A stretch of 64,000 nt of DNA from NCBI RefSeq assembly GCF_019598945.1, contig NZ_CP080598.1, positions 1,984,001-2,048,000 on the forward strand. Direction: 5' to 3'. Position numbers and translations under genes: made by a program. This DNA is from Sphaerospermopsis torques-reginae ITEP-024 (GTDB taxonomy: Bacteria > Cyanobacteriota > Cyanobacteriia > Cyanobacteriales > Nostocaceae). Shown one piece after another: positions 14,448 through 18,496 of the stretch; position 1 is the stretch's first letter, and each line of letters opens with the position of its first letter. A model generated the notes under the pieces. That model saw nothing but the letters and a program-made list of their open reading frames with translations, was not told where the DNA came from and made no database searches.

Positions 14448-15572
14448 TTAAGCTAAGATAAAATCTTCATGCCATTGTTTAGCGACTTTATCCCAACCAA
14501 AGGAATCTCTCAAAGATAACGCTTCTTGTCTGAGAGTTTCCTGTTTTTCGGGATTTTTTAATAAGTCTATGACTGCTGCCACAAAAGTATTATTAGTTTC
14601 CTCATCTCCCGCAGGTCCAGGTATTCTAATTCCTGATTTCACAGTTTCATTTAAACCAGCAAAAGTTGTCACTACAGGAACACAACCGGCAGCTTGCGCT
14701 TTCCAAGCACTTATACAAAAGGTTTCCGGTGTATGACAAGGATAAACCCAAATACCCGATTGAAATAATTCCTTGATTAGTTGTTTATGTCCAATTCTGC
14801 CATGTTCATAAACATTTTTTTTCTGGAAAAGTGACAATAATTTTTGCTTTTGTGCAGGTAAATTTGGAAGCTTATGAATTAATAGTGAATTAATTAAAGC
14901 ATCAACAACTTGCCAACCATAGAAAAGATGAAGTTCAGCATCAAGAACTTCTGTTAATACTAGATCCCATTGATTGAGTAAATGTTCAATACCCCTTGTA
15001 TAATCACTGATATAAATTAATCTTTTAGGATTTCTCTTAATTCCTGTTAAGTTAAAATCATCTAAATTAATACCATTGGTTGTTAAAAATATCTTATCTT
15101 CTGGTATCCAATCTGGTAACATCGCTTTATGGAAGTTGGATAGCATAAACAGCTTATCAAAACTTCTGAGAAATTCTGCACGTTGGGATTCTGCAATCTC
15201 TGGAAATAATTTCGGGTTATCGTGCATCCAAATTGCAGTTTTTTTAGCCTTGATTTTCATTTGCATCGGTTGAGTCCATGCACGATGACAAATGAAGACA
15301 TTAAAATTATCTTCTGGGTTGAATTTATCAACAGAATTATAAACTACTCCGTTATATTCTCCTTCCATGTCACCGCATCTGTTAAATACTGTGACTTGAT
15401 AGCCTAACTTTGTTAATTCTTGACTTAAATAAATTATCGCTTCTTCACTTCCTCCTATACCTTGATTAATTGAAATAGGAGACCAATCTTCTAGATGAAA
15501 GGGAAAATTGGAATAAATTACTATTGAGTTATTGTCCCAATCCATATTGTTTATCTGTTGCTCAAATGACAT
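14448..15572 (-). CDS. Group 1 (GT4-like) glycosyltransferase
   Basis: A 374-residue GT-B-fold glycosyltransferase that should transfer a sugar from a nucleotide donor. Visible features are the N-terminal acceptor-loop motif QGIGGSEEAIIYLSQEL, AIWMHDNPKLF, FLTTNGINLDDF, and the C-terminal donor-site segment PETFCISAWKAQAAGCVPVVTTFAGLNE (the E-x7-E region in degenerate form: PETF...A...GCVPV). It is the last gene of a three-gene cassette read leftwards: GT1-type transferase, condensation-type acyltransferase, then this gene, 94 bp after the acyltransferase. The product may be a glycosylated lipid or small molecule; donor and acceptor are unknown. Confidence 0.85.
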   Translation of the reverse strand: MSFEQQINNMDWDNNSIVIYSNFPFHLEDWSPISINQGIGGSEEAIIYLSQELTKLGYQVTVFNRCGDMEGEYNGVVYNSVDKFNPEDNFNVFICHRAWTQPMQMKIKAKKTAIWMHDNPKLFPEIAESQRAEFLRSFDKLFMLSNFHKAMLPDWIPEDKIFLTTNGINLDDFNLTGIKRNPKRLIYISDYTRGIEHLLNQWDLVLTEVLDAELHLFYGWQVVDALINSLLIHKLPNLPAQKQKLLSLFQKKNVYEHGRIGHKQLIKELFQSGIWVYPCHTPETFCISAWKAQAAGCVPVVTTFAGLNETVKSGIRIPGPAGDEETNNTFVAAVIDLLKNPEKQETLRQEALSLRDSFGWDKVAKQWHEDFILA

Positions 15573-15666
15573 TAATATGATTGTATATTAAAACCTAAAA
15601 TCTGATTTAGATTCTCGTACATTTAATTAATTAAAATTACTTATTTGAATTTTCAAAAGTTAAAAA

Positions 15667-16977
15667 TTATTTGGTGCATGAATTATGTAAGATATGAATA
15701 ACATAATCAGCAAATTTATTTGCTGTTTGATCACTTATGACAGGATCTACATAAACAAAGCTGAAAAATATCTGATCATTTAATGTAACAACTCCCAACC
15801 AAAAACAATCACCACCAAGATGTTGACCTGTAGCAAAATATAAGTCTTTGATTTTTATTTGCTCTTGTTTATATTCAAATTGGAATTTACCTCTATTGGA
15901 AATTGCAAAAGCATTGTTTCTTCCCATTTTGTCCTCTTTGCTAATTACAGATTTAGCCATCAACTCTCTATCAGGACTGCGAAATCTGTTCTGTTTTAGC
16001 AAATTTAATGGTATACCACTAATCAAAGAATTATGTATTTTTGATTTACATTTTCTGGCTAAATCCCAAAAAGATGTATTTTTACCAACTAGCTGATTAA
16101 AGCCAAGCACAGAGATAAAACAACCTAAATTTTGGGTATTAATCTCAGGTTGACAAGATTTTCTTAAATTTACAGGCAACCCGTAAGATAAATTGATCTG
16201 TTCTTTTGCATTGAGTAATTTTCTAAAAGCAAATAACATTGCTGCACAAATAGCACCATGAACAGTGGTTTCCTCTTGTTTACATTTGGTAATTAGCATC
16301 TTAGTCATATCTTGACTCAGGTTTCGTGGCAAGATTTTACTAAACCGTTCATTTGCAGATGCTTTACCTTCAATAATTAATTGTGGTTCGAGGTTAATTT
16401 GTTCATTAACTGAAGTTTTTGTAATTTCTGCTTCTGGGATAAGGTCATAATTAACTAGGTTTTCTATAGCTGGCATTAATTCCAGTGATTCTACCTGTGG
16501 TATATTTTCACCAGCTACAATTTTTTGACAATAAAGCAGTAAGTCATTAATAAACTGCATACAGGATATCCCATCAACAATACCATGATGGAATGTGATA
16601 ATCATTTGACAGGTAGTTTGATTTTCTGGGGAATACAACAGAGTTAGACGACAAAGAGGAATTTTACCTGGAGGAAATTTTGTATGTAGTTCTTTCTCTG
16701 CTATTTTCCATCCTTCGTTTTCATGTTTTTGATAAATCACTTGTAGGGGAATTTCTGTTATTCCCTCAGATTGAAAATACATCCCATCTTCAGTTTCCAC
16801 AATATAAACTTGCAGCATGGGATGACGTTTTTGAACTAATTTAAGTGCTTGTTGAACAATCTCAGGCTTTACATCTCCTTCTATTTCCGCAATATTTACA
16901 ATTAGTCCACTCCCTAACTCGTGGCCTAGTTCCATCCACTTTTCAACTAAACCCAGTTTTCTAGAGATTGATTTCAT
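15667..16977 (-). CDS. Stand-alone condensation-domain/acyltransferase-like protein (PapA-like)
   Basis: A 436-residue member of the CoA-dependent acyltransferase/condensation superfamily. The catalytic motif HHxxxDG is present as HHGIVDGISCMQFIN. The second typical segment is present as NLSYGLPVNLR with GCFISVLGF, and the DFGWG-like region is degenerate. As a free-standing protein, not part of a peptide synthetase, it resembles PapA5-like and alcohol-acetyltransferase-type enzymes that esterify hydroxyl groups. Lying between two glycosyltransferase genes (57 bp after one, 94 bp before the other), it probably acylates a sugar or lipid made by them. The acyl donor is unknown. More AT-rich than the GT1 gene. 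Confidence 0.8.
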   Translation of the reverse strand: MKSISRKLGLVEKWMELGHELGSGLIVNIAEIEGDVKPEIVQQALKLVQKRHPMLQVYIVETEDGMYFQSEGITEIPLQVIYQKHENEGWKIAEKELHTKFPPGKIPLCRLTLLYSPENQTTCQMIITFHHGIVDGISCMQFINDLLLYCQKIVAGENIPQVESLELMPAIENLVNYDLIPEAEITKTSVNEQINLEPQLIIEGKASANERFSKILPRNLSQDMTKMLITKCKQEETTVHGAICAAMLFAFRKLLNAKEQINLSYGLPVNLRKSCQPEINTQNLGCFISVLGFNQLVGKNTSFWDLARKCKSKIHNSLISGIPLNLLKQNRFRSPDRELMAKSVISKEDKMGRNNAFAISNRGKFQFEYKQEQIKIKDLYFATGQHLGGDCFWLGVVTLNDQIFFSFVYVDPVISDQTANKFADYVIHILHNSCTK

Positions 16978-17034
16978 AAATTATTTGACTTGATTTTTTT
17001 GTTGTTCAACAAGCACTATGATAAATTAAATTTT

Positions 17035-18306
17035 CTATTTCAAAACAGGCTTCCCTGTAGAAATAGCCTGTTCTATAATATCAACCGCTCGCTTTACTCC
17101 TCCCGCTTTTTGAATTGCAGCTTGCAACCTCAAAGCATTCTTTTTATATGATTCTTCCGTGAGGACTTTTGTAATTGCTTTCCGCAAATTATTCACATTC
17201 ACTTTCTTCACAGGAATAGCTTCCCCACATCCTGACCAAACTATCCGGGAAGCTACTCCTGGTTGATCATTAGCAATGGGAATTGCTACCATTGGCACAC
17301 CATTTGTTAAACATTCCAATGTAGTATTTAGTCCTGCATGGGTAATGGTGAGATTGGCTTTTTCTAATAGTTGTAACTGGGGTGCATAACGCACTACTAA
17401 AGGATTTCCTGGTAGTCCTTGGAGAACTTGAGGATCGGCTGAACCACCTAAAGAAATAACTAATTGTGCATCTAAATCCTTGCAAGCTTCGGCAATAGTT
17501 TGAAAAACTGGTAATAAACGATTTTGCAAAGTTCCCAATGAGGCATAAATTAATGGTTGTCCGGTTAATTTATCAAAGGGAAAATCAACAACTTCCCGAC
17601 CTGTAGAATTATGATATGGTCCTGTAAAATGAAACCACTGAGGTAACTCTTTTCTGGGAAATTCTAATTCAGCAGGTTGTTGACTAATTTGCGCTAATGG
17701 AGAATAACGATTATTAACTTGAGAATATGCAGGTAAATTGTTTTCTTGACGATAGCTATCTATTAATTCTGTAATCGGTTGAGTTGCTTTATTTAATAAT
17801 TTATAACCTAATTTATTACGAAGTATTCCCCACCAAGCTGGGTTATAATTCCAATTTGTCATAAATGGTGGAACACCGGGTTCTCGATTTAAAACTACTG
17901 CACTACAAATAGTAATAAAAGGCATCCCACAAATTTCAGCGATAGTACCACCTTCTGCAAAAGTCTGATCTATTAATAGTGCTTCTATACCTGCATCTTT
18001 GACAATTTTGGGGATGTCTCTGAGTTTGATGTTGATTTGTTCTGTAAAGAGTTTGATTGTGTATTTTAAGGCTTCCTGTCCACTTAATTCACCTAATTTA
18101 GCCAAATCTTCTGCTGTTGAACCTGGGGGACATTCTGTTTCACCCATGACTTGAAATTCTAAACCTGCTGCTTGTGCTTTGGGTTGTGCATCAGGAACAC
18201 CTATCAGGGTAACACGGTGGCCACGTTGTTGTAATTCTTTGCCTAATGGTAACATGGTGTTCCAATGACCAGTGGATGCCGGGCAAATTAAGCCGTAATG
18301 AGTCAT
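17035..18306 (-). CDS. UGT/MGT-type (GT1) glycosyltransferase, CrtX-like
   Basis: A 423-residue glycosyltransferase of the UDP-glucosyltransferase superfamily, similar in layout to zeaxanthin glucosyltransferase and macrolide glycosyltransferases. It has an N-terminal acceptor domain (STGHWNTMLPLGKELQQRGH), then YASLGTLQNRLLPVF and the C-terminal donor signature VVRYAPQLQLLEKANLTITHAG followed by NTTLECLTNGVPMVAIPIANDQP, where the closing D-Q binds the sugar. I start it at the ATG at 18306; the frame continues to 18357 but AAAGG lies upstream of 18306. It is first in the cassette with the acyltransferase and the GT4-like gene, and divergent from folA. The acceptor could be a carotenoid or other lipid; this is not shown. 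Confidence 0.87.
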   Translation of the reverse strand: MTHYGLICPASTGHWNTMLPLGKELQQRGHRVTLIGVPDAQPKAQAAGLEFQVMGETECPPGSTAEDLAKLGELSGQEALKYTIKLFTEQINIKLRDIPKIVKDAGIEALLIDQTFAEGGTIAEICGMPFITICSAVVLNREPGVPPFMTNWNYNPAWWGILRNKLGYKLLNKATQPITELIDSYRQENNLPAYSQVNNRYSPLAQISQQPAELEFPRKELPQWFHFTGPYHNSTGREVVDFPFDKLTGQPLIYASLGTLQNRLLPVFQTIAEACKDLDAQLVISLGGSADPQVLQGLPGNPLVVRYAPQLQLLEKANLTITHAGLNTTLECLTNGVPMVAIPIANDQPGVASRIVWSGCGEAIPVKKVNVNNLRKAITKVLTEESYKKNALRLQAAIQKAGGVKRAVDIIEQAISTGKPVLK

Positions 18307-18496
18307 GTTATAGCCTTTTGGTAAATTACAATGTTTTATACCAGAAAACAGCACCACAAGTCAAAAATATAGCTATTTTCTATAAAAAATCCTGTTACTA
18401 ATTTGAAAACTTTATAAAACTTATGTTTAATGAGCAAAAACATCACTATATTAAAAATAATTATTGCCTGTTCAAGAATAAGGATATTTATGAATT

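Follow-up and report, generated by a model that had tools for sequence, protein, structure and literature searches.

A CrtX-like glycosyltransferase, a stand-alone acyltransferase and a GT4-like glycosyltransferase in Sphaerospermopsis torques-reginae as a probable glycoside-decoration locus

RESULTS

The three genes and their surroundings

Three neighbouring genes of Sphaerospermopsis torques-reginae ITEP-024 are probably one arrangement of a glycoside-decoration locus of many cyanobacteria, in which a GT1 glycosyltransferase would glycosylate a hydrophobic alcohol, an acyltransferase (AT) would perform O-acylation and a GT4-like glycosyltransferase would add a sugar. The window, i.e. the whole stretch of DNA analysed, was 64,000 nt long (NZ_CP080598.1, positions 1,984,001–2,048,000). 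The following features were located in it:

17035..18306, minus strand: GT1, CrtX-like glycosyltransferase and first gene of the cassette; 423 aa when started at the ATG at 18306
15667..16977, minus strand: AT, stand-alone condensation-type (PapA/AATase-like) acyltransferase, 436 aa, with HHGIVDG
14448..15572, minus strand: GT4-like glycosyltransferase, 374 aa, with Pfam GT4/GT-B profiles
14480..16918 (approximate), minus strand: stretch absent from the sister MAG L068, from locus comparison

The original prediction of three leftward frames was borne out in coordinates, strand, spacing and families, with gaps of 57 bp between GT1 and AT (16978–17034) and 94 bp between AT and GT4 (15573–15666). 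The longest frame of GT1 started with GTG (17035–18357); however, the ATG at 18306 was regarded as the better start, because MTHYG or MTHFG opened 8 of 12 orthologue frames from cyanobacteria used for comparison. By profile scan, the flanking genes encoded a HAD hydrolase, a DHFR and a TPR protein. No P450 gene was found between the TPR and HAD genes of this locus. The host genome carried three P450s elsewhere; the best two shared 53–56% identity with two P450s from Nostocales loci and are at most candidate orthologues of them.

Comparison of two Sphaerospermopsis genomes gave dN/dS values of 0.096 for GT1, 0.241 for AT and 0.241 for GT4; three genes flanking the cassette gave 0.056, 0.196 and 0.197. 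All three cassette genes are thus under purifying selection, AT and GT4 least. A promoter and terminator scan bearing on a possible common transcript of the three genes gave no signal above shuffled sequence (18 promoter-like sites versus 19.0 in shuffles, and 3 terminator-like sites versus 2.7).

GT1 is related to CrtX

GT1 matched the UDPGT profile PF00201 with 82.0 bits (5.4e-23), above the curated cut-off. In the GT1 tree it formed one clade with CrtX of the Pantoea and Paracoccus crt clusters (support 98/97; the 17 rows of this branch included GT1 and CrtX, as well as Granulicella and a Paracoccus protein from outside crt clusters), with three macrolide-type glycosyltransferases outside. 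Profile and phylogeny therefore agreed with the proposed CrtX-like identity. Nevertheless, GT1 was placed as a sister to the crt-cluster CrtX proteins and not nested within them. Its length was similar to that of these zeaxanthin glucosyltransferases, but its identity was only 33–34% over 97% with Pantoea CrtX and 30% over 84% with Paracoccus CrtX. Of 386 genomes sampled from the phylum, 54 contained relatives of GT1 at E ≤ 1e-120. The slr1125 product of Synechocystis is presumably also related to GT1.

AT shares a clade with TolC

AT scored above the curated cut-offs of PF00668 (71.7 bits), PF16911 (61.2 bits) and PF07247 (53.6 bits), and its best match of solved structure was 8s6l (2.7e-19). 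H130, H131, D135 and G136 of the HHxxxDG motif were invariant in an alignment of five sequences (A1), and no other domain was found in the protein, in line with its prediction as a stand-alone condensation-type acyltransferase with HHGIVDG. It resembles PapA5 and other enzymes of this type in its PF00668 and PapA_C matches, motif and length of 436 aa, but it scored only 64.5 bits against the NCBIfam PapA5 model (cut-off 396), indicating that it is not PapA5 proper. An AlphaFold2 model of AT built from five sequences was set aside because of its mean pLDDT of 46.1 and pTM of 0.37.

AT and TolC of the tolyporphin cluster of strain HT-58-2, which are 42% identical, fell into one clade with SH-aLRT 100 (13 rows: 12 GT1-linked ATs and TolC), apart from 18 sampled distant paralogues. 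The common PapA-like paralogue of the same cyanobacterial family belongs to the same superfamily and is ∼27–37% identical to AT, but formed a separate clade (SH-aLRT 100). In the host genome this paralogue adjoins KS, KR/DH and PfaD-type genes, probably the heterocyst glycolipid island. In the phylum sample of 386 genomes, with up to four candidates scored in each, at least 2 carried AT relatives at E ≤ 1e-65.

The tolyporphin cluster offers the closest pigment comparison: its products are glycosylated and O-acetylated, and it also contains a P450 and a UDPGT-family glycosyltransferase. However, the scanned genes beside our three included no hem or tol gene, and TolD is a merely distant UDPGT relative of GT1. 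In the available portions of published papers (among PMC8401325, PMC10459692, PMC6002478, PMC12271159, PMC7345886, PMC11857680, PMC7014017 and PMC11782454), tolyporphins are described as differing by O-acetylation of the C-glycoside or a hydroxyl, and tolC is provisionally called an acyltransferase, with no activity given.

GT4 has a changed motif

The third gene product matched PF00534 (41.9 bits, 9.8e-11; cut-off 26.4), PF13439 (36.8 bits; cut-off 28.5) and PF13692 (28.3 bits, above cut-off), which confirmed it as a GT4-like transferase. The usual motif of the GT4 family is E-x7-E. E283 was present and the position of the second Glu was occupied by Lys291, both being invariant in an alignment of eight sequences (A2). 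At E ≤ 1e-30, GT4 was found in 11 of the 217 family genomes. Outside the genus it was 78–85% identical to the copy in the window, compared with 73–85% for the TPR neighbour and 62–79% for GT1. Recent spread of GT4 by transfer was considered but not adopted: these values exceed those of GT1 but are about those of the TPR neighbour, so that vertical inheritance with losses accounts for them equally well.

Conservation of the set and of its pairs

The full set was present in both Sphaerospermopsis genomes examined, and was not seen outside this genus among the 217 family genomes and the fetched loci, which also defined the scope of the GT4 search. The AT clade was found in at least 10 of the 217 genomes, one of them with a truncated AT; a truncated copy is carried by Dolichospermum. 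Among the matches listed, AT and GT4 occurred together in only 2 of the 217, both Sphaerospermopsis. Co-conservation in cyanobacteria thus held for the pairs with GT1, but for the set only within this genus. In each of the 13 genomes found with the AT clade, HT-58-2 apart, GT1 was encoded upstream of AT and on its strand; 12 of them had 0–201 bp between aligned ends, and the remaining one had a sulfotransferase gene in between. Likewise, GT1 lay upstream of GT4 on the same strand in all 10 assessable GT4 genomes. Both adjacencies recurred in distant genomes of several families. In the nine other GT4 genomes GT4 was not found joined to the AT clade, nor was any AT found joined to GT4 in the 11 other genomes with GT1-linked AT. 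In the sister MAG L068, the first ∼19 codons of AT directly preceded the last codons of GT4, so that both genes seem to have been lost in one deletion.

The place behind GT1 in other cyanobacteria

The genes found behind GT1 elsewhere encoded an FkbM methyltransferase, GT11, a sulfotransferase, PhyH and P450. A decorating gene was recognised within 5 kb of GT1 in 37 of 79 loci, and the density of such genes was ∼74-fold lower at 5–8 kb than at 0–1 kb downstream, a fall that is partly circular because the reference set was picked from the same loci. Of the 70 loci with room for one, 50 had no gene of the reference set immediately behind GT1 in its orientation. Sixteen first downstream genes lay outside the reference set, and those scanned were mostly unrelated to decoration (among them GAF, TPS, GDSL lipase, polymerase IV and auxin-conjugating-type GH3), except for a glycosidase of GH family 3 and an APS kinase; outside the filled loci the notion of a dedicated slot is weaker for this reason. 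Overall, GT1 appears to be the conserved part of the unit, followed by a position of exchangeable content.

DISCUSSION

The original prediction was that the three genes could make an acylated glycoside, for example a carotenoid glycoside ester or a glycolipid. An acylated glycoside is still the most economical product suggested by the enzyme families and the GT1 linkage, while the carotenoid acceptor depends on the distant kinship with CrtX (∼33% identity in Pantoea) and is a possible one. The reading as an acylated glycoside draws on the sister position of GT1 to CrtX together with dN/dS of 0.10–0.24, on the membership of TolC, from a cluster of O-acetylated glycoside pigments, in the AT clade, on the linkage of GT1 with AT (13/13) and GT4 (10/10), and on the other sugar- or alcohol-modifying genes behind GT1 elsewhere. 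The rarity of AT and GT4 in one genome, the missing second Glu of GT4 and the 50 of 70 loci with no reference gene directly behind GT1 count against it.

In the proposed mechanism, GT1 would use a nucleotide-bound sugar to glycosylate a hydroxyl of some small hydrophobic compound, be it a xanthophyll, another terpenoid or a lipid-like alcohol; in some relatives a P450 from a neighbouring gene may provide this hydroxyl. AT would then act through its HHxxxDG site, taking an acyl group from CoA or a carrier protein and placing it on an unoccupied hydroxyl of the sugar or, with lower likelihood, of the aglycone. On the resulting acylated glycoside, GT4 would lengthen the sugar or attach a second one. 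The order of steps, donors, acylation site and acceptor are inferred, and adjacency is no proof that the three enzymes share a substrate.

A possible alternative, to which we give somewhat less weight than to its contrary, is that the genes decorate a membrane or envelope glycolipid or a meroterpenoid, following a logic that may be analogous to that of mycobacterial phenolic glycolipids and glycopeptidolipids. The latter use GT1, methyltransferases, PapA-type acyltransferases and sulfotransferases, and near GT1 in other genomes we found FkbM methyltransferases, a sulfotransferase with APS kinase, GT11, a thioesterase, PMT-type mannosyltransferases, and Coq4 with an FAD monooxygenase. On a plasmid of Nostoc sp. 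C052, a GT1 of 61% identity accompanied genes for a desaturase, an aminotransferase, an acyl-CoA/ACP dehydrogenase and a DevBCA-type exporter. However, the scanned genes beside the trio included none for lipid or polyketide assembly.

It is rather unlikely that GT1 is a true CrtX acting on zeaxanthin or a related xanthophyll, with AT esterifying the sugar to give a carotenoid glycoside ester. Glycosyl ester carotenoids occur in other bacteria, and the GT1 relatives of known context include the crt-cluster CrtX proteins that group with it. But GT1 is not nested among these, and a Paracoccus relative with no crt neighbours groups with CrtX as well. Unlike the crt-cluster enzymes, GT1 had no crt gene among the eight window proteins scanned; the scanned neighbours of GT1 loci in other genomes likewise included no carotenoid gene, and neither did 19 further neighbour genes scanned with Pfam. 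Some GT1 relatives adjoin lipid-, quinone- or tetrapyrrole-type genes instead. A squalene-synthase-like gene was observed 7.3 kb past the far neighbours of GT1. Published papers annotate crtX in cyanobacteria, possibly the same genes as GT1. Chlorogloeopsis fritschii PCC 6912 carries GT1, AT and P450 in a row, with no GT4 at the locus (L076); for this strain, the available text of one study reports ordinary xanthophylls and myxol methylpentosides and does not mention the word ester, esters apparently not having been sought (PMC7029182). In the titles and abstracts that literature searches of open-licence papers in PMC brought up, neither the trio nor an acylated carotenoid glycoside from a cyanobacterium was described.

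That the three genes are functionally unrelated and merely neighbours is improbable. Their confinement as a set to one genus, the patchiness of GT4 and AT, and the chance-level counts of promoters and terminators fit such a view, but the constant linkage of either gene to GT1 in several families and the (partly circular) fall in decorating-gene density away from GT1 speak against it. A role of AT as a stand-alone condensation enzyme for an NRPS/PKS of the same genome is very improbable: AT does match PF00668, and the genome holds 22 condensation matches, 20 of them within open frames of 1081–4175 aa, but in 13 genomes members of the AT clade lie behind GT1 and no NRPS gene separates the two, and the host genome's own paralogue beside PKS/PfaD-type genes sits in another clade, so that clade placement and GT1 linkage disfavour it.

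O-antigen and mycobacterial glycolipid loci diversify one core in a fashion similar to what may be seen here. By this analogy we tentatively put forward, with rather more doubt than the acylated glycoside itself, that the GT1 loci constitute an unrecognised, phylum-wide locus of glycoside diversification, in which GT1 would form a hydrophobic core glycoside and the place behind it would repeatedly gain or lose enzymes that transfer acyl, glycosyl, methyl, sulfo or hydroxyl groups. Strains would thereby vary the decoration of one core molecule, with the Sphaerospermopsis trio as one chemotype and L068 as a deletion type.

If the glycoside-decoration reading is true, bloom-forming and other cyanobacteria would contain acylated glycosides that standard pigment or lipid work may miss, the CrtX-like genes of cyanobacteria would gain a testable role, and TolC-type acyltransferases would have a second context. 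The Sphaerospermopsis trio, the L068 deletion and the truncated AT of Dolichospermum provide natural genomes with and without these genes for comparative metabolomics.

Organization of the locus

In the single-contig, 5.25 Mb genome, three genes were found on the minus strand of the window (G000:C1:1984001-2048000), with gaps of 57 bp and 94 bp:

17035-18306 (-), GT1, CrtX-like glycosyltransferase, first gene of the trio
15667-16977 (-), AT, stand-alone condensation-type acyltransferase
14448-15572 (-), GT4, GT4-like glycosyltransferase

The leftward cassette of the original prediction was borne out by these ORF coordinates, and its three family calls by Pfam matches over the cut-offs: UDPGT for GT1, Condensation, PapA_C and AATase for AT, and GT4-type domains for GT4. 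A divergent dihydrofolate reductase gene lies upstream of GT1, and a convergent HAD hydrolase gene (TIGR01548 family) beyond GT4. GT1 shares 96-97% identity with its counterpart in Sphaerospermopsis kisseleviana NIES-73 (locus L069). Between two Sphaerospermopsis genomes, dN/dS was 0.096 for GT1, 0.241 for AT and 0.241 for GT4, and 0.056, 0.196 and 0.197 for three flanking genes. The trio is real, conserved in its parts and functionally coherent; its known kind is the glycoside tailoring locus, and no description of the GT1-AT-GT4 locus was found in the open-licence PMC literature.

Two separately conserved pairs

Relatives of AT were found in 129 of 217 family genomes (E<=1e-20), mostly at ~30% identity. 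In a tree of 31 rows made by a quick method (one row partial; neither the truncated copy from L072 nor the second TolC included), a branch with SH-aLRT 100 separated 12 GT1-linked ATs and TolC, the provisional acyltransferase of the tolyporphin cluster in strain HT-58-2, from all 18 sampled distant ATs. At least 14 genomes had a clade member with an identity of about 40% or higher.

Genomes with an AT of the clade
G000 (own genome), G382 (other Sphaerospermopsis), G166, G232, G229, G253, G384, G349: ~40% identity or more
G011: partial reading frame
G227 (L076): Chlorogloeopsis fritschii
L082: Crocosphaera MAG
L130: cyanobacterium SU3
G111 (L072): Dolichospermum, AT truncated to 126 aa
G264 (HT-58-2): two AT copies

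G264 apart, GT1 was located upstream of AT on the same strand in 13/13 AT-clade genomes found, counting G229, where the contig ends within GT1. In 12 of the 13, the aligned ends lie 0-201 bp apart; in the Crocosphaera MAG, a sulfotransferase gene sits between the two.

The own genome also encodes a second PapA-like acyltransferase (L152 7931-9265, ~302,931-304,265, minus strand) with 28% identity to AT. Its neighbours are PfaD-type, KS/AT, KR/DH and TubC_N genes, which probably form the heterocyst glycolipid island. The AT relatives in the family were mostly of this distant kind.

Of 217 family genomes, 11 had GT4, with 78-89% identity to the GT4 of the window; outside the family, the search covered the fetched loci. 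GT1 was upstream on the same strand in all 10 genomes whose contig extends far enough; the contig of the eleventh, G298, starts at GT4. GT1 directly precedes GT4 by 37-288 bp in six of the 10. The intervening genes were AT in two (both Sphaerospermopsis), a transposase gene in G242, and APS kinase and sulfotransferase genes in G381 (L099, Scytonematopsis contorta). G381 carries an acyltransferase gene after GT4, but this one belongs to the distant clade and points the other way. The complete trio is thus, in this sample, a Sphaerospermopsis feature (2/2), assembled from two separately conserved pairs. Outside the genus, co-conservation was seen for each pair but not for the full trio.

GT4 enzymes usually have an E-x7-E motif. 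In the alignment, E283 was kept and Lys291, invariant in eight sequences, occupied the position of the second Glu, so the donor or activity of GT4 may be unusual. This Lys was shared by all aligned orthologues, 78-89% identical to the window.

Genes behind GT1

Relatives of GT1 were detected in 54 of 386 genomes of the phylum sample (E<=1e-120) and in 34 of 142 genera, a widespread yet patchy distribution. Using Pfam labels, genes within 5 kb were surveyed at 80 named loci, 79 of them with a readable GT1 frame.

Genes within 5 kb of GT1 (79 loci)
P450: 16 loci
FkbM methyltransferase: 9 loci
Further GT1 copies: 7 loci
Second GT1 type: 2 loci
GT11: 7 loci
AT-like: 6 loci (one distant clade, one truncated)
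Sulfotransferases: 6 loci
PhyH: 3 loci
GT4: 2 loci

At least one such decorating gene was present at 37/79 loci. Downstream of GT1, 35 were counted in 74 kb (within 1 kb) versus 1 in 157 kb (5-8 kb), a ratio inflated because the reference set was picked from genes beside GT1; their recurrence in distant lineages is unaffected by that choice. Among 70 loci with at least 1 kb downstream, a reference gene on the strand of GT1 came directly after it in only 20, and in 34 the first 400 bp held no gene on that strand; the remaining 16 had another gene, mostly unrelated to decoration where scanned. These counts speak against a universal slot.

The APS kinase and sulfotransferase genes of G381 (L186 10028-11764) present sulfation as another slot filling, and PMT-type membrane mannosyltransferase genes recur beside GT1 in Pseudanabaena-type loci (L126, L135 and others). 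MAGs that carry the labels Chitinispirillum, Tatlockia and Bifidobacterium (L073, L121, L143) contain contigs with a cyanobacterial-type GT1, probably through binning contamination.

Acceptor of GT1

GT1 matched 294 plasmid records, 40 of which, spread down the ranking, were listed; the best non-cyanobacterial relatives among the matches listed were from Granulicella (41%) and Pantoea (33-34%). The CrtX-like assignment was upheld by a 23-row tree, in which cyanobacterial GT1 and CrtX shared a clade (98/97) that excluded macrolide-type glycosyltransferases, several outgroup branches being very long. A carotenoid acceptor would fit this kinship: the Pantoea ananatis relative lies between polyprenyl synthetase and crtY-crtI-crtB-crtZ-like genes, that of Paracoccus yeei (30%) likewise in a crt cluster, and crtX has been annotated in cyanobacteria in published papers. 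Other observations speak against a role confined to carotenoids. The clade also takes in Granulicella and, from Paracoccus, a protein that has no crt neighbours, and the GT1 neighbours scanned included no crt gene. In G253, the gene order is P450-GT1-AT-Coq4-FAD monooxygenase; on a Nostoc plasmid, GT1 lies in a lipid-type context of desaturase, aminotransferase, acyl-CoA/ACP dehydrogenase, formyltransferase and DevBCA-type genes. Chlorogloeopsis fritschii, a GT1-AT strain, has ordinary carotenoids in the account of PMC7029182.

The G253 genes (L156 5574-11751) all run in one direction, an order that may mean that the acceptor there is aromatic or of quinone type. The Nostoc sp. C052 plasmid pC052_E (L177; GT1 61%) cluster also holds nitric oxide synthase oxygenase and DevBCA-type exporter genes.

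Proposed activity and dispensability

The HH-x3-DG motif was invariant in five aligned AT sequences, with identity down to 42%. The first AT of HT-58-2 starts at the coordinate listed for tolC (2,592,203) in Table 10 of the tolyporphin review, and the second lies inside BGC-2. The kinship of AT with TolC matters because tolyporphins differ by O-acetylation at the C-glycoside or at a hydroxyl (PMC10459692) and tolC is provisionally an acyltransferase gene; in the co-expression experiments which that paper describes, the named product came with TolI, not TolC. The BGC-2 copy (L159 8248-9779) is split into two reading frames; the BGC-1 copy is not.

In the most likely mechanism, GT1 would O-glycosylate a hydrophobic alcohol, AT would esterify the glycoside with acetyl or a longer acyl group (a choice for which the structure model was too poor), and GT4 would extend it.

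Among the 80 loci, the nearest relative beyond the two genus genomes was MAG L068 (GT1 91%), in which the first ~19 AT codons abut the last codons of GT4. One deletion of about 2.4 kb would leave this arrangement; as L068 is a MAG contig, an assembly fault is a less likely source. With the AT of Dolichospermum L072 also reduced to 126 residues, the decoration of the glycoside seems dispensable.
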